Assembly (NCBI RefSeq): GCF_003609645.1
Contig: NZ_MCIB01000008.1
Coordinates: forward strand, 1 to 64,000
From: Thermohalobacter berrensis
GTDB taxonomy: Bacteria > Bacillota > Clostridia > Tissierellales > Thermohalobacteraceae
Length of the DNA stretch: 64,000 nucleotides
Reading direction: 5' to 3'
Of the stretch, positions 7,861 to 25,718 are shown one piece after another. Made by a program: the position numbers and the translations under genes. Under the pieces are notes generated by a model that was not told where the DNA came from, made no database searches, and saw nothing but the letters and a program-made list of their open reading frames with translations. Every line of letters begins with the position of its first letter. Within the stretch, counting starts at the first letter, position 1.

Positions 7861-7893
7861 TTAGACGATTTGGTGACGCTTATTTTATATAAT
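7861..7893 (+). promoter_or_regulatory. SARP-type operator/promoter of the hut operon
   Basis: Heptamer TTAGACG (7861-7867), spacer ATTT, heptamer GGTGACG (7872-7878), then 9 bases and TATAAT (7888-7893). The two GACG cores are 11 bp apart and the -10 follows the second by 9 bp. The same layout stands before the yjiH-like, BCCT and Mo-hydroxylase genes. There is no sigma-A -35 box at the proper distance, so an activator bound over the -35 region is expected. hutU starts 34 bp after the -10. Confidence 0.75.
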
Positions 7894-7926
7894 TAAAATA
7901 CACAAATCTATAGAAGGGGGAGTTGT

Positions 7927-9972
7927 ATGATTAACAATATAGATATTTCCAATGCTATGACTATAAAATTAGACGATATATTTGATGAATTGCCTGAAAT
8001 GCCTAAATTTGAAGAGGGTATTAGAAGGGCACCGAAAAGGGAATTAACTTTAAATAAAAAGGAAATAGAACTTGCACTTAAAAATGCACTACGTTATGTT
8101 CCAGAAAAGTGGCATGAAAAGTTAGCACCGGAGTTTTTAAATGAATTAATGACAAGGGGAAGAATCTATGGATACCGTTTCCGTCCAGAAGGAAGGATAT
8201 ATGGAAAGCCAATTGATAAATATAAGGGTAAATGTACTGAGGGAAAAGCTTTTCAAGTAATGATAGATAATAACTTGGATTTTGATATTGCCCTTTATCC
8301 TTATGAACTTGTTACTTATGGGGAAACAGGACAGGTTTGCCAAAACTGGATGCAATATAGACTAATAAAAAAATATCTTGAAGAATTAACTCAAGACCAA
8401 ACACTGGTAGTAATGTCAGGACATCCATTAGGATTGTTTAAATCTTCACCTGAAGCACCAAGGGTTATTATAACTAATGCATTAATGATAGGTATATTTG
8501 ATGACCAAGAAAACTGGCATAGGGCTGCAGCTTTAGGTGTAGCAAATTATGGTCAGATGACAGCAGGTGGATGGATGTATATAGGCCCTCAAGGTATAGT
8601 GCACGGAACTTATAGTACTATATTAAATGCAGGAAGATCTAAGCTTGGAATACCTGGTGATAAAGACTTAAGGGGACATCTATATGTTACATCAGGCCTT
8701 GGTGGAATGAGTGGAGCACAAGGTAAAGCTGTTGAAATTGCTAATGGTGTAGGTATAATTGCTGAGGTTGACTATTCAAGAATTAAGACAAGACATGAAC
8801 AAGGATGGGTTAGCGAGATAGTAGAGGATCCAAAGGAAGCATTTAGATTAGCAAAGGAATATCAAGAAAAAGAAGAAGGTATTGCAATAGCCTTTTATGG
8901 TAATATTGTTGATCTGTTAGAATATGCTGTTGAAAATAATATTGAAATAGATTTATTATCAGACCAAACTTCTTGTCACGCTGTTTATGATGGAGGATAT
9001 TGTCCTCAAGGATTAACATTTGAAGAAAGAACGGAATTATTAAGAAATGATAAGCCTAAATTTAAGGAGTTAGTTGATAAATCACTAAGACGTCATTTTG
9101 AATTAATTAAGAAGTTAGTTGCTAGAGGAGCTTACTTCTTTGATTATGGAAACAGCTTTATGAAGGCTGTATATGATGCAGGAGTTAAAGAAATCTGTAA
9201 AAATGGAGAAGACCCAAGGGATGGTTTCATATTCCCATCATATGTAGAGGATATAATGGGACCTGTTTTATTTGATTATGGTTATGGACCATTTAGATGG
9301 GTATGCTTAAGTGGTAAGCATGAGGATTTATTAAAGACAGATAGGGCTGCTATGGAATGTATAGACCCTAATAGAAGATTCCAAGATAGGGATAATTATG
9401 TATGGATAAGAGATGCAGATAAAAACAAATTAGTAGTTGGTACACAGGCAAGAATACTATATCAAGATGCCTTAGGTAGAATGAAAATAGCACTTAAGTT
9501 TAATGATATGGTAAGAAAAGGTGAAATAGGACCTGTTATGCTTGGTAGAGACCATCATGATACAGGTGGTACAGATTCTCCATTTAGAGAAACTGCTAAT
9601 ATCAAAGACGGTAGTAATATAATGGCTGATATGGCTACCCACTGTTTTGCAGGAAATGCAGCAAGGGGTATGAGCTTAGTTGCCCTTCACAATGGTGGAG
9701 GTGTTGGAATAGGAAAAGCAATAAATGGTGGATTTGGATTAGTGCTTGATGGTAGTAGTAGAGTAGATGAAATTATTAAGAGAGCTGTACCATGGGATGT
9801 AATGAGTGGAGTTGCAAGACGTGCATGGGCTAGAAATGAAGCATCTATAGAAACTTGTATAGAATACAACAAGATGAATGAAGGTACAGACCATATCACT
9901 ATACCATATATTCCTAATGAGGACTTAGTAAAAGGTTTAGTTGATGAAGCTTGGAATAAAATGAATGAATAA
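7927..9972 (+). CDS. hutU: urocanate hydratase (long form)
   Basis: NAD-containing urocanase that adds water to urocanate to give imidazolonepropionate. At 681 residues it is about 120 longer than the Pseudomonas/Bacillus enzyme and near the length of the animal enzyme. Conserved blocks seen are GQMTAGGWMYIGPQGIVHGT near 210, the NAD-binding GLGGMSGAQGKA near 255, DQTSCH near 345, GRDHHDTGGTDSPFRET near 540 and NGGGVGIGKAINGG near 590. ATG follows GAAGGGGGA. It is the first gene of the catabolic operon under the SARP-type operator. Homologues acting on thiourocanate are known, so the exact substrate deserves testing. Confidence 0.93.
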   Translation: MINNIDISNAMTIKLDDIFDELPEMPKFEEGIRRAPKRELTLNKKEIELALKNALRYVPEKWHEKLAPEFLNELMTRGRIYGYRFRPEGRIYGKPIDKYKGKCTEGKAFQVMIDNNLDFDIALYPYELVTYGETGQVCQNWMQYRLIKKYLEELTQDQTLVVMSGHPLGLFKSSPEAPRVIITNALMIGIFDDQENWHRAAALGVANYGQMTAGGWMYIGPQGIVHGTYSTILNAGRSKLGIPGDKDLRGHLYVTSGLGGMSGAQGKAVEIANGVGIIAEVDYSRIKTRHEQGWVSEIVEDPKEAFRLAKEYQEKEEGIAIAFYGNIVDLLEYAVENNIEIDLLSDQTSCHAVYDGGYCPQGLTFEERTELLRNDKPKFKELVDKSLRRHFELIKKLVARGAYFFDYGNSFMKAVYDAGVKEICKNGEDPRDGFIFPSYVEDIMGPVLFDYGYGPFRWVCLSGKHEDLLKTDRAAMECIDPNRRFQDRDNYVWIRDADKNKLVVGTQARILYQDALGRMKIALKFNDMVRKGEIGPVMLGRDHHDTGGTDSPFRETANIKDGSNIMADMATHCFAGNAARGMSLVALHNGGGVGIGKAINGGFGLVLDGSSRVDEIIKRAVPWDVMSGVARRAWARNEASIETCIEYNKMNEGTDHITIPYIPNEDLVKGLVDEAWNKMNE

Positions 9973-9977
9973 ATATA

Positions 9978-10006
9978 ATGTAGCGGAGAGCTTATTCTCC
10001 GCTACA
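9978..10006 (+). repeat. intercistronic hairpin after hutU
   Basis: TGTAGCGGAGA pairs with TCTCCGCTACA around a short loop, 6 bases after the hutU stop. No T-run follows, so it is more likely an mRNA-stabilising or processing hairpin than a terminator. The next gene belongs to the same pathway. Confidence 0.55.
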
Positions 10007-10123
10007 ACTATGGAAATAGAGTAATTTTATTCTTAATTATCATTCGACAAAATTTTTAAGTTATGCAAAACAGAACCGTCCCCGTTTTTCAGGGGGGAAA
10101 CTTACTGAAGGAGGAGATTGATT

Positions 10124-11026
10124 ATGGCTATGAAAAAGATAGTACAATGTGTGCCAAATTTTAGTGAGGGTAGGGATTTAGAAAAAATTGAAAGGATAGT
10201 TGAGCCATTTAGAGGTAAAGATGGGGTAAAACTATTAGATTATCAAAGAGATGAGGATCATAACAGAGTTGTTGTAACTGTTGTTGGAGAGCCTGAACCC
10301 CTTAAAAATGCAGTAGTAGAAGCTATGGGAGCAGCTATTGATGTTATAGATATGACAAAACATGAAGGTCAGCATCCAAGAATGGGAGCTGTAGATGTTG
10401 TACCATTTATACCTATTAGAAATGTAAGTATGACAGAGGCTATTGAACTATCCAAGGAAGTGGCTAAAGAGGCTTCAGAAAGGTATAACCTTCCTATATT
10501 CCTATATGAAAAATCAGCAACAAGACCTGAAAGGGAGAATTTAGCTAAAATAAGAAAAGGTCAATTTGAAGGTATGGCAGAAAAGCTTCAAAAACCAGAA
10601 TGGAAGCCAGATTTTGGACCAGATAAAGTACATCCAACTGCAGGTGTTACTGCTGTAGGGGCAAGAATGCCACTAGTTGCTTACAATGTAAACCTGGATA
10701 CTGACAATATAGAAATTGCTAATCAAATAGCAAGAAAAGTAAGACATATAAACGGAGGATTAAGATACTGCAAGGCAATAGGTGTAGAATTAAAGGATAG
10801 AGGAATAGTTCAGGTTTCTATGAATATGACTGATTATACTAAAACTGCCCTTTATAGAGTTTTTGAGCTTATAAAGATTGAAGCTAGAAGATATGGGGTG
10901 AATGTAGTTGGAAGTGAAGTTATTGGTCTTGTTCCAATGGAGGCATTAATTGATAGTGCAGTATACTATATGGGAATTGAAGATTTCTCAATGGACCAAG
11001 TATTAGAAACTAGAATAATGGAATAA
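10124..11026 (+). CDS. ftcD: glutamate formimidoyltransferase
   Basis: Transfers the formimino group of N-formimino-L-glutamate to tetrahydrofolate. The 300 residues cover only the transferase domain; the cyclodeaminase is the separate gene at 12373. Family blocks are IVQCVPNFSEGRD at the N terminus, RDEDHNR near 43, the His-rich EGQHPRMGAVDVVPF near 80-95 and GVTAVGARMPLVAYN near 180. ATG 10124 is chosen because GGAGGAG (10110-10116) lies 7 bases before it; an upstream TTG at 10118 is too close. Second gene of the hut operon. Confidence 0.93.
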   Translation: MAMKKIVQCVPNFSEGRDLEKIERIVEPFRGKDGVKLLDYQRDEDHNRVVVTVVGEPEPLKNAVVEAMGAAIDVIDMTKHEGQHPRMGAVDVVPFIPIRNVSMTEAIELSKEVAKEASERYNLPIFLYEKSATRPERENLAKIRKGQFEGMAEKLQKPEWKPDFGPDKVHPTAGVTAVGARMPLVAYNVNLDTDNIEIANQIARKVRHINGGLRYCKAIGVELKDRGIVQVSMNMTDYTKTALYRVFELIKIEARRYGVNVVGSEVIGLVPMEALIDSAVYYMGIEDFSMDQVLETRIME

Positions 11027-11064
11027 AAAACCCGTTATAGATATTTAAATTCAGGGGTGATTAA

Positions 11065-12345
11065 ATGGAAGGTAATTTGATTATAAAAAATGCTAATGAA
11101 CTGGTAACTTGTAGTGGCTTTAAAGCAAAACAAGGAAAGGAAATGTCAGATTTAAAGATAATATATGATGGTGCAGTAGTTATTGAAGATGGAATAATTA
11201 AGGAAGTTGGAAAAACAGAAGAAATATTAGATAAATATAATGAGAATGATTATGAAGTTATAGATGCTAAGGATAAAGCTGTTTTACCTGGATTTGTTGA
11301 TTCACACACCCATTTTGTTTTTGGTGGATATAGACCTGAAGAGTTTTCGTGGAGACTACGTGGAGATAGCTATATGGAGATAATGGAACGTGGTGGAGGT
11401 ATTGTAAATTCAGTTGAAGCAACAAGAAAGGCATCAAAGGAAGAACTTTTAGAAACTGGTAGAAAAAGACTTAATTCTATGTTAGCCTTTGGAGTTACTA
11501 CAGTTGAAGGAAAAAGTGGATATGGTCTAGATTATGATACTGAAATAAAACAACTGGAGGTTATGGAAGAGTTAGATAAAAACCATCCTGTAGATATAGT
11601 TAAGACCTTTTTAGGAGCCCATGCAATTCCAAAGGATTATAAAGGGAAAGAAGATGAGTTTATTGATTTTATTATAGATAAAGTTCTTCCTGATGTGGCA
11701 GAGAGAAAGCTTGCTGAATTCTGTGATATATTCTGTGAAAAGGGAGTATTCTCAGTAGAACAATCAAGAAAATTACTTAACAAAGCAAAGGAATATGGAT
11801 TAAAGCCAAAATTACATGCAGATGAGATAGTACAGTTAGGTGGAGCAGAATTAGCTGCAGAATTAGGTGCTGTATCTGCTGACCATTTACTTCAGGCTTC
11901 AGATAAGGGAGTAAAGGATATGGCTGAAGCAGGAGTTGTAGCAACTATCCTTCCAGGTACAGCCTTTAGTTTAAAAGAGCCTTATGCAAGGGCTAGATAT
12001 ATGATAGACCAAAACTGTGCAGTTGCATTGGCTACTGACTTAAATCCTGGTAGTTGTTTTACTGAATCTATACCTTTAATATTTTCATTAGCTACCCTTT
12101 ATATGGATGTAACAACAGAAGAAGCTATAACTGCCTTAACTATAAACGGTGCAGCTGCTGTAGGAAGGGCAGATACTATTGGAAGTATAGATGTGGGTAA
12201 AAAAGGAGATATAGTAATACTTGAGTTTCCATCATATAAATACATACCATATCATATAGGGGTTAATACAGTAGAAAAGGTTGTTAAAAATGGAAAATTA
12301 GTATATGACAAAGAGGAAATCTATAGTAAGATGTTTAAAATATAA
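11065..12345 (+). CDS. hutI: imidazolonepropionase
   Basis: Zinc-dependent amidohydrolase opening imidazolonepropionate to N-formiminoglutamate. The 426 residues show the metal motif VDSHTHFVFGG near 75-85, GKSGYGLD near 150, AHAIP near 188, the metal His in KLHADEI near 250 and the metal Asp in ALATDLNPGS near 322. ATG 11065 follows AGGGGTGA. It stands 38 bp after ftcD in the same operon. Confidence 0.94.
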   Translation: MEGNLIIKNANELVTCSGFKAKQGKEMSDLKIIYDGAVVIEDGIIKEVGKTEEILDKYNENDYEVIDAKDKAVLPGFVDSHTHFVFGGYRPEEFSWRLRGDSYMEIMERGGGIVNSVEATRKASKEELLETGRKRLNSMLAFGVTTVEGKSGYGLDYDTEIKQLEVMEELDKNHPVDIVKTFLGAHAIPKDYKGKEDEFIDFIIDKVLPDVAERKLAEFCDIFCEKGVFSVEQSRKLLNKAKEYGLKPKLHADEIVQLGGAELAAELGAVSADHLLQASDKGVKDMAEAGVVATILPGTAFSLKEPYARARYMIDQNCAVALATDLNPGSCFTESIPLIFSLATLYMDVTTEEAITALTINGAAAVGRADTIGSIDVGKKGDIVILEFPSYKYIPYHIGVNTVEKVVKNGKLVYDKEEIYSKMFKI

Positions 12346-12372
12346 TAAAAAAAAGTAAAACGAGGTGGTAAT

Positions 12373-12990
12373 ATGTTGGGGGAAATGAGTGTAAAGGAAT
12401 TTTTAGAAAAGACTGCATCTAAGGCACCAGTACCAGGGGGAGGAAGTGTAGCTGCACTTAGTGCTGGTATTGCTGCAAGTTTAACTGAAATGGTGGCTAA
12501 TCTTACAATAGGTAAAAAAGGCTACGAAGAAGTTGAAAAGGAAATGGAAGAATTACTTAATAAAGCAAAAGAATTAAGGGATAAATTTGTTGAAGATATA
12601 GATAGGGATTCAAATGCCTTTGACAAAGTTATGGAATCATTTAAATTACCTAAGGATACAGATGAACAAAAGGAAAAGAGAAAAAAAGCTATTCAAGAGG
12701 CTTTTAAAAATGCTGCTTTAGTTCCATTAGATGTGGCAAAAAATGCTTATAAAATGATGGACTTAGCAAAGGTAGTAATTGAAAAGGGAAATAAAAATGC
12801 TGTAACTGATGGAGCTGTTGCTTGTATGATGGCAAGAACAGCTGTATTATCTGCACTATACAATGTAAAGATTAACTTAGGTTCTATAAAGGATGAAAAA
12901 TTTGTACAAAAACTTTCGAAAGAAGTAGAGGAATTAGAGTCAAAAGTAAATAAGGAAGAAGAGGAAATACTTTCAAAAGTAGAATTGTAA
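12373..12990 (+). CDS. fchA: formimidoyltetrahydrofolate cyclodeaminase
   Basis: Converts 5-formimino-THF to 5,10-methenyl-THF and ammonia. The 205-residue all-helical protein contains APVPGGGSVAALSAG near 20 and the folate-binding helices typical of the FtcD C-terminal domain. Last gene of the hut operon. With hutU, ftcD and hutI it completes urocanate to glutamate plus one-carbon units. No canonical histidine ammonia-lyase gene accompanies it in this window. Confidence 0.92.
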   Translation: MLGEMSVKEFLEKTASKAPVPGGGSVAALSAGIAASLTEMVANLTIGKKGYEEVEKEMEELLNKAKELRDKFVEDIDRDSNAFDKVMESFKLPKDTDEQKEKRKKAIQEAFKNAALVPLDVAKNAYKMMDLAKVVIEKGNKNAVTDGAVACMMARTAVLSALYNVKINLGSIKDEKFVQKLSKEVEELESKVNKEEEEILSKVEL

Positions 12991-12992
12991 AA

Positions 12993-13107
12993 AAGTCTTC
13001 TATTAAAAATAGAAGACTTTCAAGGTTGACTTTTTTGAAACACATAACGGAAATTATATTTTATCCACAGCTTTTATTTGATTATAATTTCCTATGTGTT
13101 ATAAAAA
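12993..13107 (+). repeat. dispersed structured repeat, copy A
   Basis: This stretch of about 115 bp is matched in reverse orientation at 46911-47026 with roughly 85-90% identity by eye. It begins with a hairpin AAGTCTTCTATT/AATAGAAGACTT, continues with AAGGTTGACTTTTTT, and ends in a long inverted repeat with arms AACACATAACGGAAATTATA and TATAATTTCCTATGTGTT. It lies directly after fchA. No ORF is inside. It may be a small non-autonomous element or a structured RNA. Confidence 0.7.
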
Positions 13108-13135
13108 AGTGGAGACATTTGTCTCCACTTTTTTT
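13103..13135 (+). terminator. rho-independent terminator of the hut operon
   Basis: AAAAAGTGGAGAC pairs with GTCTCCACTTTTT around ATTT, ending in seven T. It is the first strong terminator after fchA and directly follows repeat copy A. Confidence 0.85.
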
Positions 13136-13179
13136 AATAATGAACCTTTAAAAGCAATTGACAATTAGAAAAACAATTA

Positions 13180-13735
13180 AAAATTAAAAATGTAAAATTG
13201 AAAATGAATGAGTTAGTGGTTAGTAGCAAGTAGTTAGTAGGAAATACAGTTGCTAGTTCCTGGTTCTCAGTTCTTAGCTTTTTAGAAAAAGTTAGTAGGT
13301 AGTAGTTAGTGAAAGTAGTTGTTAGTGGCTGGTGATTAGTGGTTAGGATAATGCAAAAGATAAAAAATAACAAACCATTAATAGCAAGAATTTAGTAAGA
13401 TGTTTTTTTAAATTAATAATCTTCATAGCATTACTAAAAAACAACCACTATCCACTAATCATCAAAAACTGCTTTTAAAAGTAACGGACATCCTTGTTTC
13501 TCTTCTCTGGAATAGTAACGGTCCTCGAAGTTTTACTTCCTTGGCATAGTAACGGACTTCCTAGGCTAGACATCCATGGCAAAGTAACGGGCCACAAAGC
13601 CTTACTACCTAGGTCAAGTAACGGTCCTTATAGGCTAGATTTCTTAGAAGTAATAACAGAACACAAAATACTAAACATGTTTTTAATTTTTTTATTTTTA
13701 AGAACTGAGAGTTAGGAACTAGGAGCTACGTTTTT
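13180..13735. repeat. repeat-rich non-coding block with nested inverted repeats
   Basis: The left part (13210-13350) is a TTAGTGG/TTAGTAG-rich low-complexity sequence. An arm at 13253-13277 (CTAGTTCCTGGTTCTCAG...) is inversely repeated at 13699-13723 with few mismatches. A second arm at 13331-13347 is inversely repeated at 13447-13463. Between them lies a 34-bp tandem array. Two short ORFs here do not look coding. I see no gene in this block. Confidence 0.6.
13480..13660 (+). repeat. 34-bp tandem repeat array (AGTAACGG units)
   Basis: Units beginning AGTAACGG start at 13480, 13514, 13548, 13583 and 13617, with a decayed sixth at 13649; spacing is 34, 34, 35, 34 and 32. Units at 13514 and 13583 resemble each other (TTAC..CC..GG core), and those at 13548 and 13617 resemble each other (TAGGCTAGA core). 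This gives a 69-bp higher-order period. No cas genes and no unique spacers are present, so this is not a CRISPR array. Confidence 0.75.
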
Positions 13736-13738
13736 TTA

Positions 13739-13767: not shown

Positions 13768-13800
13768 TATGATATAGCATGTATATAGAGGGGTGAAGTA

Positions 13801-15689: not shown

Positions 15690-18600
15690 ATGGCAGAGAT
15701 ATATGTAAAGATTTTTAATACTCCTATGGTACAGAAAAATGGAGAAAAGGTTTCCTTTCCCTTAAGAAAAGCAGAAGCTCTATTTTATTATCTTGTAGTA
15801 AATAAGCAAGCTACTAGAGATGAATTGGTGAATCTTTTATGGGGAAATTTAGGTGATAAAAGTGGTAGGAAGAACTTAAGAAATACCATGTATAGAGTAA
15901 GGAAAGCCTTCGATTTAGATGTTATTATTTCTCCTCAGCAGCAAATAGTAACACTTAATCCTGATATAAAGATAAATTCAGATTTAGAGACCTTCTTAAA
16001 TGATAATGAAGACAATCTAAAAGCATACACAGGGGAATTTTTACAAGGTTTTGCAGTTAAAAACGCAAAGAAATTTGAAGAATGGATGTTAAGTACAAGA
16101 GAATACTATAAGCAGTTATATATAAATAAAGTATATAAAAATATTGAATTTGATCTAAAAGATAAAAAATATGATTCTATTGAGAAATGGGTTAAAACAT
16201 TAATTAATTTAGATGAGTTTGATGAAAAGGCTTATAGAATTTTGATGAAAATATATGCTGAAAAGGAAGCCTATAACAAGGCTATAGAAGTATATAATAG
16301 ATTGTTTGAAATATTGAAGACTGAATTAGGGGTAGAACCAGATGTCAAAACAAAAGAACTTTTTAGAGAAATACTTGAAATGAAAAGTTTTAGCTTTGAT
16401 AAAAATAAAGATAGGCCTAAAAGTTTTTTCTATGGAAGAGAAAAGGAGCTTAATTTGTTAAGGAAAAACTATTTAAATTTTATAAATAGTAAAGAATCAA
16501 AATCTGTTGTTATAATGGGAGAAGCAGGCATCGGAAAGACAGCCCTTAAGGATAAATTTATCGAACAAATAAAATCCAATAATATCTATATATTAGAGAC
16601 TAATTGCTATCAAGTTGAAAAGGATTACTTTTTAAGACCATGGAATTTAATATTCTCAAAATTGTTAGAGATAATTAAAAGTGAAAATATAGATATATTA
16701 GATTCATGGAAAAATGTTGTATCGTATTTGTTTCCCGGATTTTTAGAAAAAGAGACAGGAACAGACCCAATTAGGAAAATAGATACCTTAAAATTTGGAG
16801 TAATTGAAGAAACAATAATAAATATATTAAAAAAGGTTTCTACGAAGAAGAAGATATTGTTTATAATTGAAGATTTACAATGGATAGATAAGATGAGTCT
16901 TTCATTGTTAACAAGTATTTTACTTCATATAAAGAACAATAATGTTATGTTTATTGGTACATTAAGAAATGGATATGAAAAAGAAATAGATAAATTTCTT
17001 GCACTTATGGGGAAATACAACATAATTGAAAAGATTTATTTGGAGAGGTTTTCTAAAAAAGAAACTAAAGAAATTATTAATAAAACCCTTCCTAAACATA
17101 TGATTAGTAAAGAACTTCAAAATATGATATATAGTGAAACAGAAGGTAATACTTTCTTTCTAGTGGAATTTTTAAAGACTTTAAAAGAAAAAGGGACTAT
17201 AAATGTAATGTCTTCAAAGATGAAGGACATATTAAAGACAAGATTTTTAGATATTTCAGAAAATGGAAGAAAACTTATTGATGTTATTTCAATCTTTTTT
17301 GATGAAGCACCTTTGGATATATTAAAAGAAACAAGTGAAAAAGATGAATTAGAAATTTTAGATATAATGGATGAACTTAAAAGTAAGTATATAATTAAAG
17401 AAATTGTAAACTTAGATAAAATAAGTTTTAAATTTACCCATCAAAAATTAAGAGATTTTATATATGAAGAACAATCATTGGCTAGAAGAAAGGTACTTCA
17501 TAATAAAATAGGATTGATCCTTGAAAATACACTTAAAGGAAATAAATCGGATGTTTCTATATATCCAAAGCTTATATATCATTTTCAAAAAGCTGGAAAC
17601 TTACTTCTGGCTCTCAAATATAGCATAAAAAATATAAGTATATATCTAAACTTTAGTCACGAGCTCTTCCCAGAACTAGATATAAACTTAGGAGAAAAAA
17701 ACAAATATTTAAATATTGATAAAGAGGAATCTCTATCATATTTAAAGGATATTGAAAAATTACTTCAAAAAGTAAAACAGAAAGATGGTATAACTAAGGA
17801 AGTAAAAAAACTTGAAATTGTATTTTTTCATATGATGGGAAGATATTTAATAAAAGAGGGAGAGTATGAAAAAGGAATAGGATATATACAAAAGGTTATA
17901 AAGAAATCTGAAGATATTAATGAGTATAAATATATTTTAAAGGGATATAGACAGATGATTTACTACTGTATACAAACTTATAATATTCAATTAATGGATA
18001 AATATTTAAAGCTTGGACTTGATTTAGCAAAAAGACAAAACTTTAAAAAAGATATTGGAATTTTATTAAGGCTTAAAGGTTTAAATAAAATTATGAAGGG
18101 TGAATACCAAGAAGCTGAGGAACTATTAAAGGAATCTATTAGAATATTTAACATGCTAGATAAAGGTACAAGCAGATACTTAGTATACATTGCCGCAGCA
18201 TATAACTATATTGGAGATATAAGGCGAAATAGAATGGAATTTTCTAATTCACTTAACTATTTTAATAAAGCAATATCTATTTGTGAAAATAAAAATATTT
18301 TAAGGGGACTTAGTATTTTTAATACAAGGGCAGGTCAAGCTGCATTTGATATGGGAGATTATAAAAGGTCCAGAGAATATTTAAGGAAGGCCCTCAACGT
18401 ATATAATAAAATTGATTTAGTTTGGGGAAAGGCTATTGCACAAGGATATATGGCAATGATTTATGTAAAAGAAGCTAAATATGTAGATGCTTTAGATTAT
18501 CTAAAGAAAGCAGAAGAAAATTCTCAGAAACTAAAAAATCCCTACGAAATCGGTCTTATATATAGAGTTAAAGCAGAAATAAAGTCTAATATGGCTAATA

Positions 18601-18734
18601 ATGAAGAATTAAATAAAAGTTTTTCACAATATTTACAATTACCATTGGAAAAATACTGTGAAGAGGGGATAACATTTTTAAAGAAGGTAAAAGATTGTTA
18701 TGAAATGGATATATTAAAGGCCTTAAAAAAATAG
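15690..18734 (+). CDS. SARP-type transcriptional regulator (winged helix-BTAD-ATPase-TPR), paralogue 1
   Basis: Large regulator of 1014 residues. Residues 1-95 form an OmpR-like winged helix (RKAEALFYYLVV, RDELVNLLWG, RKNLRNTMYRVRKAF). Residues 100-250 form a bacterial transcriptional activation (BTAD) helical domain. An ATPase follows with Walker A GEAGIGKT (about 277-284) and Walker B IEDLQWID (about 393-400). The C-terminal half is TPR-like helices. Such AfsR-type proteins sense a ligand and activate promoters through direct repeats. ATG 15690 fits AGGGGGAG at 15674-15681; a GTG at 15681 lies inside that site. Its stop overlaps the operator of the next gene. Likely controls the four operators described here. 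Confidence 0.85.
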   Translation: MAEIYVKIFNTPMVQKNGEKVSFPLRKAEALFYYLVVNKQATRDELVNLLWGNLGDKSGRKNLRNTMYRVRKAFDLDVIISPQQQIVTLNPDIKINSDLETFLNDNEDNLKAYTGEFLQGFAVKNAKKFEEWMLSTREYYKQLYINKVYKNIEFDLKDKKYDSIEKWVKTLINLDEFDEKAYRILMKIYAEKEAYNKAIEVYNRLFEILKTELGVEPDVKTKELFREILEMKSFSFDKNKDRPKSFFYGREKELNLLRKNYLNFINSKESKSVVIMGEAGIGKTALKDKFIEQIKSNNIYILETNCYQVEKDYFLRPWNLIFSKLLEIIKSENIDILDSWKNVVSYLFPGFLEKETGTDPIRKIDTLKFGVIEETIINILKKVSTKKKILFIIEDLQWIDKMSLSLLTSILLHIKNNNVMFIGTLRNGYEKEIDKFLALMGKYNIIEKIYLERFSKKETKEIINKTLPKHMISKELQNMIYSETEGNTFFLVEFLKTLKEKGTINVMSSKMKDILKTRFLDISENGRKLIDVISIFFDEAPLDILKETSEKDELEILDIMDELKSKYIIKEIVNLDKISFKFTHQKLRDFIYEEQSLARRKVLHNKIGLILENTLKGNKSDVSIYPKLIYHFQKAGNLLLALKYSIKNISIYLNFSHELFPELDINLGEKNKYLNIDKEESLSYLKDIEKLLQKVKQKDGITKEVKKLEIVFFHMMGRYLIKEGEYEKGIGYIQKVIKKSEDINEYKYILKGYRQMIYYCIQTYNIQLMDKYLKLGLDLAKRQNFKKDIGILLRLKGLNKIMKGEYQEAEELLKESIRIFNMLDKGTSRYLVYIAAAYNYIGDIRRNRMEFSNSLNYFNKAISICENKNILRGLSIFNTRAGQAAFDMGDYKRSREYLRKALNVYNKIDLVWGKAIAQGYMAMIYVKEAKYVDALDYLKKAEENSQKLKNPYEIGLIYRVKAEIKSNMANNEELNKSFSQYLQLPLEKYCEEGITFLKKVKDCYEMDILKALKK

Positions 18735-18763
18735 ACGTTTAAGCGACGGATATAGTATATAAT
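18731..18763 (+). promoter_or_regulatory. SARP-type operator/promoter of the yjiH-like gene
   Basis: Heptamer ATAGACG (18731-18737), TTTA, heptamer AGCGACG (18742-18748), 9 bases, TATAAT (18758-18763). The first heptamer contains the TAG stop codon of the upstream regulator gene, so the operator is packed against that gene. The layout equals that before hutU. Confidence 0.75.
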
Positions 18764-18876: not shown

Positions 18877-20196
18877 ATGAAAAATACTGTTATGCCCGAA
18901 GGAAAGGCTTTAAGTACAAGTGGGAAAGTAAAATTTGTCCTCTTTAGTTTAATTGGTATATTTATGTTCTTTATTCCCGTAACTATTGGTGGGAAATCTA
19001 CTATTCCTCTAGACCATATTGTAACAGGCGTTAAAAATACACTACCTACTTTAGCACCTATATATGCAATTGCAGTAATAATTATAGGTAGTATTAAACC
19101 TTTTGTTAATAAGACATGGAACTCAGATAAAGTGAATACAGTTTTTTCAATTTTAAAAATTTTAGGTATTGTAGTTGTATTAGCTGTATATTCAAATATG
19201 GGGCCGGCTTGGCTTTTAGAAAGTGACATGGGACCATTTCTATTTGAAAAATTAGTAATTCCTGTTGGGCTTATAGTGCCTATTGGAGCTATATTTCTAT
19301 CCTTCTTAGTTGAATATGGACTTTTAGAGTTTATAGGAGTATTAATGCAGCCTGTAATGAAGCCAATCTTTAAAACTCCTGGAAGATCTGCAGTTGATGC
19401 TGTTGCTTCATTTGTTGGTAGTTATTCTATTGGACTTCTTATAACAAATAGAGTGTTTAAAGAAGGGAAATATACGATAAAGGAAGCAGCAATTATAGCA
19501 ACTGGTTTCTCAACAGTTTCTGCAACTTTTATGATAATTGTTGCTAAAACTTTAGGGCTTATGGATATATGGAACATATATTTCTGGACTACTTTAATAA
19601 TAACTTTTACAGTTACAGCTATTACAGTTAGAATAAAACCTTTAAGTAGTAAAAGTGATAGATATATTACTGGGGAAGGACACAAACAGCTAGCTTTTAA
19701 AGGGAACTTATTTAAAAATGCGTGGGAAGAAGGAGTAAGGGCAGCAGAAAAAGCAGAAACTATTGGAAAAAGTGTATTAGAGAACCTAAAAGATGGTTTC
19801 AATATGGCCATGGGAATTTTACCAACTATAATGTCTGTAGGGTTAATAGGATTAGTTTTTGCTAAATATACTCCTTTATTTGACGTTGTAGGGTATATTT
19901 TCTATCCATTTACTAAAATTCTACAGGTTCCTGATGCAATGTTAGCAGCGAAAGCCGCTGCAGTTGGAATAGCAGAGATGTTCTTACCAGCATTACTAGT
20001 AGTTGAAGCTGCACTGGTTACTAAGTTCGTAATCGGAGTAGTTTGTGTATCTTCTATATTATTTTTCTCAGCCTCTATACCATGTATACTTTCTACAGAA
20101 ATCCCAATTAGTTTAACAGAAATATTAGTCATATGGGTTGAAAGAACTATACTTACATTATTGATAGCAGTCCCAGTGGCGTTTTTAATACTGTAA
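18877..20196 (+). CDS. YjiH-family nucleoside-recognition (GATE) membrane transporter
   Basis: Polytopic protein of 439 residues with about ten hydrophobic segments and the paired gate-domain pattern seen in YjiH/SpmA-like proteins (PGRSAVDAVASFVGSYSIG near 170-188; a second half from about 310). ATG follows AAGGGGGAG. It has its own SARP-type operator and a strong terminator. Genes of this family recur next to hut genes in anaerobes, and I infer uptake of histidine, urocanate or a related imidazole. The substrate is not established by sequence. Confidence 0.75.
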   Translation: MKNTVMPEGKALSTSGKVKFVLFSLIGIFMFFIPVTIGGKSTIPLDHIVTGVKNTLPTLAPIYAIAVIIIGSIKPFVNKTWNSDKVNTVFSILKILGIVVVLAVYSNMGPAWLLESDMGPFLFEKLVIPVGLIVPIGAIFLSFLVEYGLLEFIGVLMQPVMKPIFKTPGRSAVDAVASFVGSYSIGLLITNRVFKEGKYTIKEAAIIATGFSTVSATFMIIVAKTLGLMDIWNIYFWTTLIITFTVTAITVRIKPLSSKSDRYITGEGHKQLAFKGNLFKNAWEEGVRAAEKAETIGKSVLENLKDGFNMAMGILPTIMSVGLIGLVFAKYTPLFDVVGYIFYPFTKILQVPDAMLAAKAAAVGIAEMFLPALLVVEAALVTKFVIGVVCVSSILFFSASIPCILSTEIPISLTEILVIWVERTILTLLIAVPVAFLIL

Positions 20197-20198
20197 TT

Positions 20199-20233: not shown

Positions 20234-20729
20234 GTGCGCCGGGCATATGTAACAACTAGGTGGTGAAAGTCCACTGTGGAGGTTGACCATGCCAACCACT
20301 GACCGAAGGCAAAGGTGTCCACCTTGAGGTGGAATCTGAAGAAGCTGAAGACAAAATCCTGGTCTGAGGTACACGAATCACATTAGAGACTGTATAAACT
20401 GGGTGAGTTTGCATAACAAAACAAAGCCCTAAATGGTTCGAAAGTTTATGCAGTAAATATGGCGGATATATGGGAGGAAGCAGGTTACGCTTACCCCGGG
20501 AGGTCTCAAGGATAAGTCATTAAGATGTATTTCGAAATGACAACCTATACGGTGATGTATAGCTGAACCTTGAGAAGTCAGCAGAGGTCATAGTACCTGT
20601 CTAAACCTAGGATAGGGAGGGAAGGACCGAACATTAGGGAGGCAAGTAACATTGAAAGATTCGAGAGGTATGCAGAGACCACAGAAAACTTCATACTACT
20701 CGATTTTTATGGATTATAAAGGGAATTAA
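20234..20729 (+). mobile_element. truncated bacterial group IIC intron (5' ribozyme part and start of maturase)
   Basis: The 5' end is GTGCGCC directly after a terminator T-run. Conserved domain I-III blocks are seen: GGAATCTGAAG, GGTCTGAGGTACACGAA, GAGTTTGCATAACAAAAC, TACCCCGGGAGGTCT, GTCAGCAGAGGTCATAGTAC and GGAAGGACCGAACA, all closely like the Oceanobacillus-type IIC ribozyme. A maturase reading frame opens at 20670 (MQRPQKTSYYS) and runs only 19 codons. Reverse transcriptase, domain V and domain VI are absent. It is a dead remnant, and its orientation is the same as the flanking genes. Confidence 0.88.
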
Positions 20730-20788
20730 GGTAAATTTATATAATTATTATTTATAGGCATAAAAATAGTATGAAGGAGAGATGGAAA

Positions 20789-23700
20789 ATGGCCCTTATA
20801 GAAGTTAAATTATTTGGTTCGCCTAAAGTATACAAGAAAAAAGAGAAAATTAACTTTCCCTTTGGAAAGGCAGAAGCACTTTTTTATTATTTAGTTGTTG
20901 AAAAAGAAAGTTCAAGAGATGTGCTAATTAGCCTATTTTGGGGAAATATACCTGAAAAATCTGCTAGAAAAAATTTAAGAAATGCAATATATGTTATAAA
21001 GAAAGTATTTAATGAAGAAGTTTTAATTTCTCCAAGAAGGTCAATAGTAAAACTAAATCCAGAAATTGATTTTAAAATTGATTTAGAAGAATTTTTGAAT
21101 AAAAAGAATAAGGAAGCTATAGAAATTTATAATGGCCATTTTCTTGAAGGGTTTTTTGTAAAGAATGCTGAGGAATTTGAAACATGGATGACATCCTTAA
21201 GACATAAACATATGGATATATATGTAAATAAACTTAAAAAAGAAATTAATAAATATATAGAGAATAATCAGTTAAATAAAGCAGAAGCATATTGTAAGAA
21301 ATTAATAAATATAGATGAATTTGATGAAAAAGGATATAGAATCTTAATGAATTTGTATAGAAAGCAAGGAAAATACAATAAATGTATATCTATCTACAAT
21401 AAGTTAAAAGAATTATTAAATAAAGAATTGTCAGTATCTCCAGATGTAAAGACTAGAAGGCTATTTGAAGAAATTTTAATTGAGAAGAAAACTAGGAAGA
21501 TATTCAATAGTAAAGATAGTGATGAATTTTTTTATGGACGAAAAAAAGAACTAAAAATTCTAAATGGGAATTTTTTTAACTTTTTGCAAGGAAATGTTTC
21601 TAAATCTATAGTACTTTTTGGGGAAGCAGGAGTAGGAAAAAGTAAACTTTTATCTAGATTTTTAAACACAATCAATAAAGATGAAAACATATGGATACTT
21701 AAAACTAATTGCTACCAAGCAGAGGAAAAGTTTTTATTTAAACCTTGGAATGATATTTTTTATCAGTTATCAAATATCTTTAAAAAGGAAAATGTAGAAA
21801 TTCCTGTATACATAAGAAAGATAATATCACAAATATTTCCTACTTTTATAGGAGCTGATGAAATAGAAGGTAATTTATTTGAAAAATCACGACTATTAAA
21901 ATATGAAATTGTAGAAGAAGCTGTAATAGATATATTTAGGAAAGTATCAAAAAGGAGAAAAATAGTATTAGTTTTTGAAGATTTACAATGGATAGACAAT
22001 ATGAGTTTAAATCTATTAAAAAATATCATATTAAAGGATAAAAACAAGTCAATAACTGTATTAGTAACGTGTAGAAATGAATCTATTGAAAGGGTTGAAA
22101 ACTTTTTAACAGAAGTAGGAAAATACGGATTAATAGAAAAACTTTCTGTAGGAAGATTTAATAAAGAGGAAACTTTAGATTTTGTAGATAAAATGTTACC
22201 AGATAAAAATTTATCTTTAGAAATAAAAAATTCAATATATAAAGAGAGTGAAGGAAATGCTTTGTTTATAGTTGAACTTTTAAATAATCTAAAGGAAAAG
22301 AATAATTTTACTACTTTTACTCCTAAACTAAAGGATGTTTTAAAAAGCAGGCTTTTAGATATATCAACTGAAGAAAGAAAAATTTTAAATATTGCTTCTG
22401 TATTTTTTGACAAATTTAATTTGGATGTATTAAAAGAAATAACACAGAAAAATGAATTAGAACTTGTTGAAATTCTTGAGGAACTTCAGAGAAAAAAATT
22501 AATTAGAGAGATTTTAGATTCTAGTGGAAATATTAACTTTATGTTTACACATCAGAAACTAAGAGAATTTATATATTCGCAGATGTCTATGGCAAAAAGG
22601 AGAATTTTACATAATAGGGTATCACATTATCTAGCAGGGAAACTAACAGGTAGTAATAGTGATAAATTATTATATCCTAAACTTATATACCATAATAAAA
22701 AGGCTGGAAACAAATTAGAATATTTTAAGTATAAAATAAAGAACTTAGAGCAATATATACATCTAATCCATGAAATCTTTCCTGTAATCGATGAAAATGA
22801 TGTATTAAAAAAGAATTTTCTATATATGTCTGATGAAGAAATAGAAAAACAATTAAATGATATTAATGAATTACTAAAAGAAATCAAAGAGGAAGTTAAA
22901 TTAGACAGTAGTTTAGTATATTCAGAAATAACTTTTTTACATATGCTTGGAAGATATAATATTGGAAAAGGTGACCACAAGGAAGGACTAAAAATAATAA
23001 GAAAGATGATTGATAGGGCATTAAAAACTAAAAATTATAGTTTTGCATTAAAAGGTTATTTAAAAATAATATACTATTGTATTAACACACACAACATAAA
23101 ACTTATGAACTCTAGTATAACAAAAGCTTTAGATATAGCTAAAAAAAGTAATAGTAAGGGCGAAATAGCTATTTTATTAAGATTAAAAGGATTTCAAAAA
23201 ATTATGAATGGAGAATTTAACAAGGGTGAGGAACTTTTAAAAAAATCTATCAAAATATTTGATAACCTAGATCATAAAGAAAAATATGAATTAAATATTG
23301 CTGCTTCTTTTACCTATATTGGAGAGAGTAAAAGACGTAAAAAAGAATTTAATAAAGCTATTTACTATTATGAAAAAGCTATATCTATGTGCGAGAAAAA
23401 GGGGTTAGTAGGGGGACTTACTATAGCTTATACAAAAGCTGGACAGGCAGCTTATGAAGTTAATAACTATGAAAAAGCTAAGGAATATTTTAAAAAAGCA
23501 ATAAGTTTGTATAACCAATTCAATCTTGTATGGGGACGTTCTATAGCTAATGGTTATTTTTCTTTAATATTGGTTAAGGAGAAAGAATGGGATGAAGCTC
23601 TAAAGTATATTAACAAGGCAGAAAAATTTGCCAAGAAGGTGAATAATCCTTATGAGATTGGTCTGCTTTATAGAGTAAAGGCAGAAATGTGCAAACTAGT

Positions 23701-23842
23701 AAAAGAAAATAATAAAAAGATTTTAGGATATCACTGCCAAGACAATATAGATGAATATTGTAACAAAGGATTAAAATATTTAAAAGATATAAAGGGGTGT
23801 TATGAAAAGGAAGTATTAAAAAGATTAAAAAATATTAGTTAA
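20789..23842 (+). CDS. SARP-type transcriptional regulator (winged helix-BTAD-ATPase-TPR), paralogue 2
   Basis: A paralogue of the protein encoded at 15690, co-linear over its whole 1017 residues. It has the winged helix (GKAEALFYYLVV, LISLFWG, RKNLRNAIYVIKKVF), BTAD to about 250, Walker A GEAGVGKS (about 278-285), Walker B FEDLQWID (about 397) and C-terminal TPR-like repeats. ATG 20789 is preferred because AAGGAGAG (20774-20781) stands 7 bases before it; the ATG at 20771 precedes that site. The two copies flank the yjiH-like gene and may answer to different ligands or form mixed oligomers. No SARP operator precedes either gene. Confidence 0.85.
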   Translation: MALIEVKLFGSPKVYKKKEKINFPFGKAEALFYYLVVEKESSRDVLISLFWGNIPEKSARKNLRNAIYVIKKVFNEEVLISPRRSIVKLNPEIDFKIDLEEFLNKKNKEAIEIYNGHFLEGFFVKNAEEFETWMTSLRHKHMDIYVNKLKKEINKYIENNQLNKAEAYCKKLINIDEFDEKGYRILMNLYRKQGKYNKCISIYNKLKELLNKELSVSPDVKTRRLFEEILIEKKTRKIFNSKDSDEFFYGRKKELKILNGNFFNFLQGNVSKSIVLFGEAGVGKSKLLSRFLNTINKDENIWILKTNCYQAEEKFLFKPWNDIFYQLSNIFKKENVEIPVYIRKIISQIFPTFIGADEIEGNLFEKSRLLKYEIVEEAVIDIFRKVSKRRKIVLVFEDLQWIDNMSLNLLKNIILKDKNKSITVLVTCRNESIERVENFLTEVGKYGLIEKLSVGRFNKEETLDFVDKMLPDKNLSLEIKNSIYKESEGNALFIVELLNNLKEKNNFTTFTPKLKDVLKSRLLDISTEERKILNIASVFFDKFNLDVLKEITQKNELELVEILEELQRKKLIREILDSSGNINFMFTHQKLREFIYSQMSMAKRRILHNRVSHYLAGKLTGSNSDKLLYPKLIYHNKKAGNKLEYFKYKIKNLEQYIHLIHEIFPVIDENDVLKKNFLYMSDEEIEKQLNDINELLKEIKEEVKLDSSLVYSEITFLHMLGRYNIGKGDHKEGLKIIRKMIDRALKTKNYSFALKGYLKIIYYCINTHNIKLMNSSITKALDIAKKSNSKGEIAILLRLKGFQKIMNGEFNKGEELLKKSIKIFDNLDHKEKYELNIAASFTYIGESKRRKKEFNKAIYYYEKAISMCEKKGLVGGLTIAYTKAGQAAYEVNNYEKAKEYFKKAISLYNQFNLVWGRSIANGYFSLILVKEKEWDEALKYINKAEKFAKKVNNPYEIGLLYRVKAEMCKLVKENNKKILGYHCQDNIDEYCNKGLKYLKDIKGCYEKEVLKRLKNIS

Positions 23843-23863
23843 TATTATTCCAAATTTTAGCTT

Positions 23864-23896
23864 TTTGACTTTTTATTGACGTTTTGTTAGTAAAAT
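23864..23896 (+). promoter_or_regulatory. SARP-type operator/promoter of the BCCT transporter gene
   Basis: Heptamer TTTGACT (23864-23870), TTTT, heptamer ATTGACG (23875-23881), 9 bases, TAAAAT (23891-23896). The same TTTTATTGACG core precedes the Mo-hydroxylase operon. The TTGACG hexamer is too close to the -10 (9 bp) to act as an ordinary -35 box. Confidence 0.72.
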
Positions 23897-23996
23897 AACA
23901 ATTAGGAACGAAATTTTCAGAAGATTCAAAACAAAGGAAACAAAAGATAAATTCAAATATGAAATAAAAAAGTATATTAAAAAGGGGGATGGTATT

Positions 23997-25631
23997 ATGG
24001 AGGTAACTAATAGGACAGGTAACAAAAATAATAAAGCTTCATTAAGACTAACTATTTTTATTCCTATGGCAGTTATTTTTTTAGCAGCAATAATTTTAGG
24101 AGTAGTTGCTCCTAAAGCCTTCTATGATGTTGAGAATGCAATTGTACAGTTTGCATTTGAAACTTTTGGATGGCTTTTTCAAATTTGTGGAAACATTTTC
24201 CTATTTATATGTCTTTGGGTTATGGTTTCAAGGTATGGTGAAATTAAACTTGGGGGAAAAGAAGCCAAACCTATTATGAGTTTTTGGAATTGGTTTGCAA
24301 TATCATTATGTGCTGGAATTGCTACAGGAATTTTATTTTGGGGGATTGCAGAACCTATCACTCATTTTATGTCACCTCCAGAGGCTTTAGGAATAACTCC
24401 ACAAAGTGAAGAAGCTGCAATGTTTTCGATGACAACTACTTTTATTCATTGGACTTTTATACCATATGCAATGTATGGTATTGCTGGATTAGCTATAGGT
24501 TTTGCAACTTTTAATATGAAGCTACCGTATCAAGTTAGCTCAGTATTGTATCCAGTGTTTGGTAAACATACAAAGGGAATAGTAGGAGAAATAGTTGATA
24601 ATATTTGTTTATTTGCAATGGCTGGTGGTGTTGCTGCAATATTGGGTGTAGGAACTATGCAGATAGGTAGTGGATTAAATACTTTAGCTGGTATTCCAAC
24701 AGGTAAAACTTTATGGACTATAATTGTTGGTTTGATAGTTGTTACATATATTTTCTCAAGTTATACAGGATTAAATAGAGGAATACGCTGGTTATCAGAT
24801 AAAAACTCAAAACTGTTTATAGCAATAATGTTATTTGTATTTTTCTTAGGACCTACTAAGTTTATTTTATCTTTAGGAACTCAATCAACAGGTCATTTTA
24901 TTCAAAATTTCTTTGTAAGAACTCACTATTTAAGTCCTATAGAAGGCTCTGCATGGCCTAGATGGTGGCCAATATACTATTGGGCTATATGGTTAGCATA
25001 TGCTCCATTAACTGGTATGTTTTTAGCAAGAATTTCGAAGGGTCGTACATTAAGACAGTTTATGCTAGTGAATTTAATTTTACCTGCAACCTTTGGATTA
25101 ATCTGGTTTTCAGTATTTGGAGGCTCAGCAATACATCTTCAATTAAATGGAGGTCAACTTTGGGAAGCTATCCAAAAGTCTGGTTTAGAAATATCAGTCT
25201 TTGCATTTTTCGAAAATTTCCCTCTTTCCAAATTGATAAGCTGGGTATTTATTTTAGCAATTTACATTTCAATAGTTACCTTGGCAGATTCAATGACTAC
25301 TACAGTTTCATCCCTTTCAACTACAGCATATAATAATGCAGAAGTTGAGCCGCCAACTAAAGTTAAGATATTCTGGGGTATTGTAATGTCCTCAATGGCT
25401 ATAATAAACTTAATTGCTGGAAAGGCTGGAAAAATTAGCGGTATAGATGCTACTAAGCAGATTGCTACAGTTGCGGGATTCCCAATACTATTTTTCATGT
25501 TATTGTTAGCTTTTTGTGTAATAAAAATGCTTGTAAAACATAAGGAATATGATATAGTAAATCATCCTGATACTGCTTATATAGAAGAAGAAATGCTAGA
25601 GAAAAATCAGGCAGATATAGCTATACAGTAA
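23997..25631 (+). CDS. BCCT family (betaine/carnitine/choline type) transporter
   Basis: Membrane protein of 544 residues with twelve hydrophobic segments. The BCCT signature region is present: the aromatic trimethylammonium-box segments around ARWWPIYYWAIWLAYAPLTGMF-like residues near 320-345, and GLNRGIRWLSDKN near 260. BCCT proteins import quaternary ammonium compounds, usually with sodium or protons. The neighbours (SARP-type operator, Mo hydroxylase, MIO-less lyase that would release an amine) suggest a histidine betaine such as ergothioneine or hercynine as substrate; this is inference. It has its own promoter and terminator. ATG follows AAGGGGGATGG. Confidence 0.88.
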   Translation: MEVTNRTGNKNNKASLRLTIFIPMAVIFLAAIILGVVAPKAFYDVENAIVQFAFETFGWLFQICGNIFLFICLWVMVSRYGEIKLGGKEAKPIMSFWNWFAISLCAGIATGILFWGIAEPITHFMSPPEALGITPQSEEAAMFSMTTTFIHWTFIPYAMYGIAGLAIGFATFNMKLPYQVSSVLYPVFGKHTKGIVGEIVDNICLFAMAGGVAAILGVGTMQIGSGLNTLAGIPTGKTLWTIIVGLIVVTYIFSSYTGLNRGIRWLSDKNSKLFIAIMLFVFFLGPTKFILSLGTQSTGHFIQNFFVRTHYLSPIEGSAWPRWWPIYYWAIWLAYAPLTGMFLARISKGRTLRQFMLVNLILPATFGLIWFSVFGGSAIHLQLNGGQLWEAIQKSGLEISVFAFFENFPLSKLISWVFILAIYISIVTLADSMTTTVSSLSTTAYNNAEVEPPTKVKIFWGIVMSSMAIINLIAGKAGKISGIDATKQIATVAGFPILFFMLLLAFCVIKMLVKHKEYDIVNHPDTAYIEEEMLEKNQADIAIQ

Positions 25632-25634
25632 AAT

Positions 25635-25662
25635 AAAACTCCCATTATGGGAGTTTTATTTT
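25635..25662 (+). terminator. terminator of the BCCT gene
   Basis: AAAACTCCC pairs with GGGAGTTTT around ATTAT, followed by ATTTT, four bases after the stop codon. Confidence 0.85.
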
Positions 25663-25685
25663 ACTGTATTAAACAAGGAAATTAT

Positions 25686-25718
25686 CTAGACTTTTTATTG
25701 ACGATCGTTTTATATAAT
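25686..25718 (+). promoter_or_regulatory. SARP-type operator/promoter of the Mo-hydroxylase/lyase operon
   Basis: Heptamer CTAGACT (25686-25692), TTTT, heptamer ATTGACG (25697-25703), 9 bases, TATAAT (25713-25718). It lies 51 bp before the first gene. Spacing is identical to the other three sites. Confidence 0.75.

Follow-up and report, generated by a model that had tools for sequence, protein, structure and literature searches.

We analysed a 64,000-nucleotide stretch of Thermohalobacter berrensis DNA (contig NZ_MCIB01000008.1, positions 1 to 64,000; hereafter the window, whose numbering is used throughout), in which one promoter layout stands before four units that lie around two genes for large SARP-type regulators. 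All operators and genes given below with window coordinates are on the forward strand. Operator/promoter A (7862–7893) precedes hutU, which encodes urocanate hydratase (7927–9972; Pfam match, TIGR01228 above cut-off) and is followed by ftcD (glutamate formimidoyltransferase, 10118–11026; TIGR02024 above cut-off), a hutI-like gene (imidazolonepropionase, 11065–12345) and an fchA-like gene (formiminotetrahydrofolate cyclodeaminase, 12373–12990), the last two taken from the list of open reading frames (ORFs) and named by sequence. Operator/promoter B (18732–18763) precedes the gene for a Gate-domain (YjiH-like) membrane transporter (18877–20196; PF07670 above cut-off), C (23865–23896) that for a BCCT family transporter (23997–25631; PF02028 above cut-off), and D (25687–25718) the genes for the subunits of a molybdenum (Mo) hydroxylase (25770–29399). 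The first regulator gene, SARP1 (15690–18734), lies upstream of the Gate gene, and its paralogue, SARP2 (20789–23842), upstream of the BCCT gene. Both starts were set at ATG codons; the ORF tool places them at GTG 15681 and ATG 20771, respectively.

Four predicted promoters with paired repeats of 11-bp period

The strict pattern GACK-N7-GACG-N9-TAWAAT matches the window four times. Its first GAC lies at 7864, 18734, 23867 and 25689 (sites A to D), the second 11 bp further on (7875, 18745, 23878 and 25700), and the gap from GACG to the −10 hexamer is exactly 9 bp at all four sites, the hexamers being TATAAT (7888–7893), TATAAT (18758–18763), TAAAAT (23891–23896) and TATAAT (25713–25718). The initial annotation had reported these four identical layouts from the letters alone, with no −35 box at the normal distance; both observations hold exactly, as no TTGACA-like hexamer (at least 4/6 matches) was found 14–19 bp upstream of the −10 at any of the four sites. 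The predicted −10 lies 33, 113, 100 and 51 bp from the start codon at A, B, C and D, respectively. Sites C and D have GACTTTTTATTGACG in common, where A and B differ, and site B overlaps the stop codon of SARP1 (TAG, 18732–18734).

The whole genome (2,763,896 bases, 40 contigs) holds only these four strict matches, before the genes named above, so that the pattern is not scattered at random; the reversed control gave none. None of 100 dinucleotide shuffles of the window reached four matches, either with the strict pattern (mean 0.00) or with a loose one, GAC-N8-GAC-N10-TANNAT (mean 0.03). A chance origin of the sites was rejected on this genome-wide strict scan and these shuffles. The loose pattern also found only the same four matches in the genome, against five in its reversed control: taken alone, the loose count is not above chance, and the part that chance does not explain is the placement at these four promoters.

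SARP sites are described, in a passage of PMC10936776, as direct repeats with a period of 11 or 22 bp whose 3′ repeat lies 8 bp from the −10, and the afs box as covering −40 to −19, over the −35. Placing the −10 hexamer of the window sites at −12 to −7 puts the first GAC at −36 and the second at −25, the same register as the afs box, and the 3′ repeat lies 8 bp from the −10 when the window repeat is read as the heptamer TNGACGN. The window sites, thus, have 11-bp repeats, 8 bp to the predicted −10 and no proper −35, and the SARP geometry stated in the initial annotation agrees in its spacing with that passage of PMC10936776.

The same spacing stood out in 80 SARP loci (1.57 Mb). GAC, GAC and TAWAAT at distances of 11 and 13 bp occurred 34 times there; the remaining 379 spacing pairs averaged 0.38, and no count in the reversed control exceeded 6. 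In a letter-free scan for repeated heptamers (AT-rich and low-complexity repeats excluded, genes masked, a single site being able to count in several combinations) the top four of 208 combinations all had a period of 11, 7–10 bp before the −10. The loose motif matched these loci 58 times, with no match in the reversed control, and 55 of the 58 sites were outside same-strand ORFs of at least 150 codons. It weighs against these counts that the loci had been picked by the presence of a SARP gene.

SARP1 and SARP2 are about 1014–1017 residues long and 46% identical. Both match BTAD (PF03704), AAA_16 and TPR_12 over the Pfam cut-offs, the SARP–NOD–TPR order of AfsR, in keeping with the two SARP-like proteins that had been noticed inside the set; the assignment of SARP1 also draws on its structure model and relatives, and that of SARP2 on alignment, tree and helix comparison. 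A model of SARP1 residues 1–247, built from 78 sequences (mean pLDDT 93.7), had as its best match in the PDB AfsR in a transcription initiation complex (8k60; Z 18.0, 223 residues aligned, 3.5 Å), followed by AfsR 8hvr (Z 16.9) and EmbR (2ff4, Z 16.4; 2fez, Z 16.2); the next row had Z 11.3. The model aligned to AfsR over residues 2–234 and to EmbR over 1–233. A PDB sequence search with the full alignment (A1) brought up no SARP, its 23 matches being TPR-type or designed repeat proteins; the N-terminal alignment (A2) returned AfsR and EmbR, matched in their BTAD part. SARP1 and SARP2 are not AfsR orthologues, because they score 18.4 and 17.7 bits against the AfsR equivalog NF053617, for which the cut-off is 1430.

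We compared the conserved AfsR DNA-contact residues W74, R87, T88, R92, R94 and K95 with their equivalents in 83 SARP rows. W51, which we put on AfsR W74 (offset 23, our assignment), and R64 do not vary among the rows with letters at these positions (81 of 83). At the other equivalents, positions 71 and 72 are mostly K or R, position 65 is N in 69 rows instead of T, and position 69 is variable. By domain layout and, for SARP1, by modelled fold, the SARP reading of the two regulators is well supported.

A probable histidine fermentation regulon in relatives

We compared the presence of the strict motif and of the SARP family in 249 genomes of the order, own genome included. A SARP was called by profile A1 at E ≤ 1e-50, which takes in forms without NOD and a few fragments. 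The motif was found in 27 genomes, a family SARP in 56 and a urocanase match in 153; motif and SARP occurred together in 25 genomes, the motif only in 2, the SARP only in 31 and neither in 191 (Fisher p 1e-16). At the genus level the same classes numbered 11, 2, 11 and 68 (p 8e-7). These p values overstate independence, because the genomes are related. At 30 hutU loci, drawn from the 153 genomes with a urocanase match, the motif was present at 10 of 11 from SARP genomes and at 0 of 19 from genomes without a SARP, and at the eleventh (G188) the repeats are present with the −10 one base further on. Within one genus, g20, the figures were 10/11 with SARP and 0/9 without, indicating that SARP and operator were gained or lost together inside the genus. 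The conservation in related genomes on which the initial annotation had made its proposal depend was, thus, borne out, and it tracks the SARP gene, with exceptions; this co-occurrence points to a so far undescribed control of histidine, and perhaps ergothioneine, breakdown.

Several results weigh against so close a link. Genus g20 supplies every one of the 11 SARP loci in the hutU comparison; outside it that test consists of 10 loci without SARP, together with the genome table. By hand count, the strict motif matched the 249 genomes 40 times, compared with 19 matches in the reversed control, so that chance matches are present, and 31 of the 56 SARP genomes have no strict motif, 23 of these belonging to one family (f4). 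Two genomes are exceptions in the other direction: in G017 the motif stands before hutH, yet no SARP or BTAD was detected, and in G244 it stands before a Gate gene, and the sole BTAD protein detected is small (349-codon frame) and encoded on a different contig. Three strict matches that had no locus are outside the examined set (G060:C64, G187:C17:43627 and G207:C1:741000).

In nine g20 genomes the SARP matches are split into SARP and TPR parts, in frames of about 565 codons that lack NOD. One such variant, from G191 (L184, 1406–3106; 567 residues), has Pfam matches to BTAD and TPR only and none to AAA; its gene is divergent from hutU, with the operator kept between them. G207, of the same genus, has a SARP that keeps NOD by Pfam. 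The operator kept beside a SARP without NOD implies that NOD is not needed for whatever conserves the operator.

Histidine is fermented through urocanate to formiminoglutamate, whose one-carbon unit passes to tetrahydrofolate and is released as formate (fhs, focA), while glutamate is carried onward by glutamate mutase. We collected the genes downstream of 98 distinct sites; for this set the spacing to the −10 could vary by ±1 base, and 33 motif loci from relatives were included. They were hutU at 26 sites, fhs at 16, NhaC-like at 7, hutH at 6, BCCT and the Mo-hydroxylase 2Fe-2S subunit at 5 each, glmL at 4, hutI at 3, ftcD, focA, Gate and SARP at 2 each, and a B12-binding gene and PBP6 at 1 each. 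Altogether 79 of the 98 sites stand before histidine, one-carbon, glutamate-mutase, BCCT, Mo-hydroxylase or transporter genes, so that most are not before unrelated genes; sites before unrelated genes were an outcome that the initial annotation had named as refuting its proposal. Sites like A stand in relatives before hutU, or before fhs upstream of hutU; two other loci have a site before a Gate gene (L100, L146), five before BCCT (L053, L066, L097, L103, L011) and five before the 2Fe-2S subunit (L053, L066, L103, L104, L134).

The target list has its own weak points. The seeds hutU, ftcD, hutI, BCCT, Gate and the 2Fe-2S subunit were genes of the window, but the seeds hutH, NhaC-like, fhs, focA, glmL, B12-binding and PBP6 were themselves genes found downstream of the motif, so the counts for those seven are partly circular. 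Sixteen of the 98 sites have no seed match downstream: some are within genes, and others before cut-off, far or unknown genes. Among the particular cases, the hutU count for L081 at 2643 is probably a chance match inside fhs, and for L015 and L021 (G001 and G002) no seed gene begins in the 450 bp downstream, the two resembling a shared coding stretch. The hutH of T. berrensis itself (contig 17, with the ASG motif) has neither a strict nor a loose site.

The loci with sites are largely from Clostridia; others are from Acidaminococcus, of the Negativicutes, from Vagococcus, Enterococcus and Companilactobacillus, of the Lactobacillales, and from metagenome-assembled genomes named Atribacteria and Calditrichales. 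The description of a local regulon, therefore, stood for this genome, where all four sites lie within 18 kb, and not for the system, which is widespread in relatives. A permissive scan of 32 loci found weakened sites, such as GACG..GATG before ftcD in Clostridium, amid plain chance matches, and a −10 of TATAGT before hutU in Vagococcus and before ftcD in Carnobacterium. In G017, the perfect motif (L183, 7955) stands before a hutH-ftcD-fchA-hutU-hutI-like operon. In another genome (G060; L133, 889), the motif lies 18 bp before a gene that by eye resembles an iron-sulphur subunit of the NADH/hydrogenase type, a possible target outside histidine breakdown.

Judged by sequence, the SARP reading of these sites is well supported, and the regulated function would be a histidine fermentation regulon, mainly of Bacillota. 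We put at roughly 0.86 the probability that the four sites are operators of large SARP activators at AfsR-type promoters of such a regulon, with the paralogues probably dividing the work. Two SARP protomers would occupy the two repeats next to each other (consensus about T-N-GAC[G/T], period 11 bp), at the position where a −35 would otherwise be recognised by sigma region 4. The upstream repeat is itself a −35-like hexamer, but at 20 bp from the −10 it is 3 bp too far away. Once bound, SARP would keep sigma region 4 and RNA polymerase in place and so switch the promoter on (‘sigma adaptation’, as for AfsR). The regulated genes would be hutU-ftcD-hutI-fchA in T. berrensis, joined in relatives by hutH, fhs, focA, genes of glutamate mutase and transporters. 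SARP1 would act on histidine catabolism, and SARP2 probably on a module for ergothioneine (histidine betaine) that comprises BCCT, ergothionase and Mo-hydroxylase.

Two paralogues and an ergothionase homologue

The Mo-hydroxylase genes encode a 2Fe-2S subunit (25770–26225), an FAD subunit assigned by position (26246–27133) and a Mo-binding subunit (27120–29399). The scanned subunits, 2Fe-2S and Mo-binding, are under the NCBIfam equivalog cut-offs, as the BCCT protein is under those of individual BCCT transporters. 3′ of them lies a gene (29427–30956) for a lyase of the HAL superfamily without the ASG of the MIO cofactor. Its best PDB match is ergothionase (6s7j/6s7q; 551 bits, E 1.9e-164, 501 residues) of Treponema denticola, and the next is a probable histidine ammonia-lyase (245 bits). 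The lyase keeps the GTIQK stretch of 6s7j and scores below the hutH equivalog cut-off; it is, thus, a HAL-family protein without ASG that is closest to 6s7j. Neither enzyme has the ASG; the window homologue differs in its setting, downstream of Mo-hydroxylase genes, with a BCCT gene and a SARP nearby. The lyase suggests breakdown of ergothioneine with release of trimethylamine, and the BCCT transporter suits a betaine substrate.

The module of Mo-hydroxylase, BCCT and lyase might instead serve another betaine or imidazole substrate, such as hercynine, a minority possibility that we nevertheless take seriously. In the own genome no thiourocanate hydratase was recognised, the sole urocanase found scoring 306 bits against a cut-off of 930, and we know of no role for a Mo-hydroxylase in ergothioneine breakdown; both speak for another substrate. 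Against it, the lyase is far nearer to ergothionase than to histidine ammonia-lyase and has kept the GTIQK stretch. A second HAL-family lyase without ASG (GSVGYLSPEAHM) was seen in Acidaminococcus provencensis (L131, from base 3); it is truncated by the end of the locus and only 32% identical to the window lyase.

We related the SARPs to their neighbours on a quick tree of the 83 SARPs, in which the label for genes of the ergothioneine module was set by hand and, of adjacent SARPs, the one next to BCCT was taken. All eight SARPs labelled as beside BCCT or Mo-hydroxylase, SARP2 included, fall within one 12-row clade (SH-aLRT 100), and SARP1 lies outside it, next to its Caloranaerobacter relative. 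The labels need three changes on the tree, compared with a mean of 7.7 after shuffling, and 0 of 500 shuffles was as low. For a comparison of the recognition helix, we took from the tree this SARP2 clade and a 19-row clade holding SARP1 (fork support 93), in which a single row is gapped at the compared positions. Residue 69 is K, Q or R in all 18 lettered rows of the SARP1 clade and M, I, V or S in all 12 of the SARP2 clade, and residue 67 is M in 18/18 and V or I in 12/12, respectively. In the full set of 83 rows, this position has M, I or V in the SARP2 clade only (11 rows). By our assignment, it would correspond to AfsR R92, the reader of an afs-box base.

The operators differ in parallel. 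Where a genome has two paralogues, the first GAC is followed by G at 7/7 histidine-side sites and by T or C at 9/9 others (p 8.7e-5). This hand count covers the window, L053, L097 and the pairs L054+L066, L060+L103 (the same assemblies by accession) and L069+L094; it omits L068, where the hutU site likewise has G, as well as a within-gene match (L103:17512). Ergothionase-like genes without ASG were found at six loci (window, L053, L066, L082, L103 and L104, the last from Clostridium ljungdahlii), each with a member of the SARP2 clade; in the 69 of the 81 loci without a member of that clade, many of them short, no such lyase was recognised.

That both SARPs act redundantly on all four units, with no sub-regulons, is in our view unlikely. 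Redundancy would fit the identical geometry of all four sites, and it would fit L082 (C. ultunense), which has a single SARP gene in reach, of the SARP2 clade, near both a GACG site (ftcD) and a GACT site, as well as L109 and L112, where SARP2-clade members with I at residue 69 lie beside hutU. Against it stand the letters that C and D share and A and B do not, the 7/7 versus 9/9 split, the clade difference at helix residues 67 and 69, and the link of the clade to BCCT and ergothionase-like genes. Besides L082, L109 and L112, further results count against a clean division. The label needs three changes on the tree; of the 12 loci with a clade member, 6 were found to have ergothionase-like genes; L097 has BCCT only, and L094 has Mo-hydroxylase plus a lyase with ACG at the MIO site; and GACT is also found at histidine-side genes in L062, L067, L078 and L122. 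In L065 and L068 none of the module lies beside the second SARP copy. Because L109 and L112 keep I beside hutU, residue 69 follows the clade rather than the gene content.

From the comparison of sequences, a division in which SARP1 serves hutU and Gate, and SARP2 serves BCCT and the Mo-hydroxylase genes, appears likely, though not strict. The proposal of the initial annotation that both SARPs activate the four units together, therefore, is supported as to control of the SARP type, while tree, operator letters and gene content favour a split. On a broader proposal our judgement is evenly balanced: that SARPs are not confined to antibiotic regulation in Streptomyces, that a widespread class of them in Bacillota controls histidine fermentation through AfsR-like promoters, and that one duplication, with a change of helix and operator, may have yielded a regulator of ergothioneine breakdown.

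Other regulators and known systems

Sites of OmpR/PhoB proteins can also be 11-bp direct repeats in the place of a −35, so that another winged-helix regulator, such as a response regulator of this type, might bind the repeats, the SARP gene being a mere neighbour. We consider this very improbable. G017, with its site before hutH and no detectable SARP, supports such a regulator, and geometry alone does not separate SARP from PhoB-like binding. The co-occurrence of site and SARP in the 249 genomes and at the 30 hutU loci (10/11 against 0/19) argues against it, as do SARP genes near sites in many families. In addition, no receiver domain family is among the Pfam matches of SARP1 or SARP2, and by eye, unsystematically, no OmpR-type gene was noticed in four regions with listed ORFs. 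Ordinary sigma-A promoters with a TTGAC-like −35 repeated by chance have a negligible probability and were rejected on the −35 spacing: the upstream repeat itself matches TTGACA at 4–5 of 6 positions, but its spacer is 20 bp at all four sites, 3 bp over the usual 17, shuffles give no such set, and SARP loci from many families again show the second repeat at a distance of 11 bp.

Among known SARPs, AfsR of Streptomyces coelicolor is the closest in kind, with the same order of SARP, NOD and TPR, two repeats of 11-bp period, a 3′ repeat 8 bp from the −10 (as given in a passage of PMC10936776), an upstream repeat on the −35 position and the best fold match to the SARP1 model. It differs in its target, afsS, where those here are catabolic genes of anaerobes, and some of the g20 frames are without NOD. 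EmbR of Mycobacterium tuberculosis shares the SARP fold and carries a C-terminal FHA domain, according to PMC10936776, where the window SARPs have NOD and TPR. ActII-ORF4 and RedD share the DNA-binding and BTAD module and the repeat geometry (PMC10936776), but as small SARPs they consist of the SARP domain only. HutP, the RNA-binding antiterminator of the Bacillus subtilis hut operon, also controls histidine utilisation genes in Bacillota and differs in being an antiterminator and not a promoter activator.

Searches of the open-access literature brought up no study in which a SARP controls histidine or ergothioneine genes, and none of a SARP operator from Clostridia, in agreement with the initial annotation, which knew of no described operator of this kind in that class. 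In a review of Streptomyces SARPs (PMC10972967), searched by term, the words Firmicutes, Bacillota and Clostridi are absent. SARP proteins and their geometry are known; for the host group, for the catabolic regulon and for the split of the paralogues, these searches revealed no description. Work on SARPs treats them as switches for the antibiotic clusters of actinobacteria; in the present case this architecture and this operator geometry occur with genes of primary catabolism, in low-GC anaerobes of the Clostridia, Negativicutes and Lactobacillales. Histidine fermentation in Clostridia gains a candidate regulator in this way and so, should the ergothioneine reading be true, does a pathway that yields trimethylamine. 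The natural variants, two paralogues with different operators and a form without NOD, make specificity and the role of NOD directly testable.

Two other features of the window were noted. Between the Gate gene and SARP2 (20318–20627) there are two matches to group II intron domains D1–D4 (RF02001, 119.4 bits; RF01998, 72.0 bits), and the ORF list holds no frame for an intron protein of at least 100 residues in that interval. The region 13160–13700, between fchA and a YibE/F gene, contains many short near-repeats, for example AGTAACGG and TTAGTAG.

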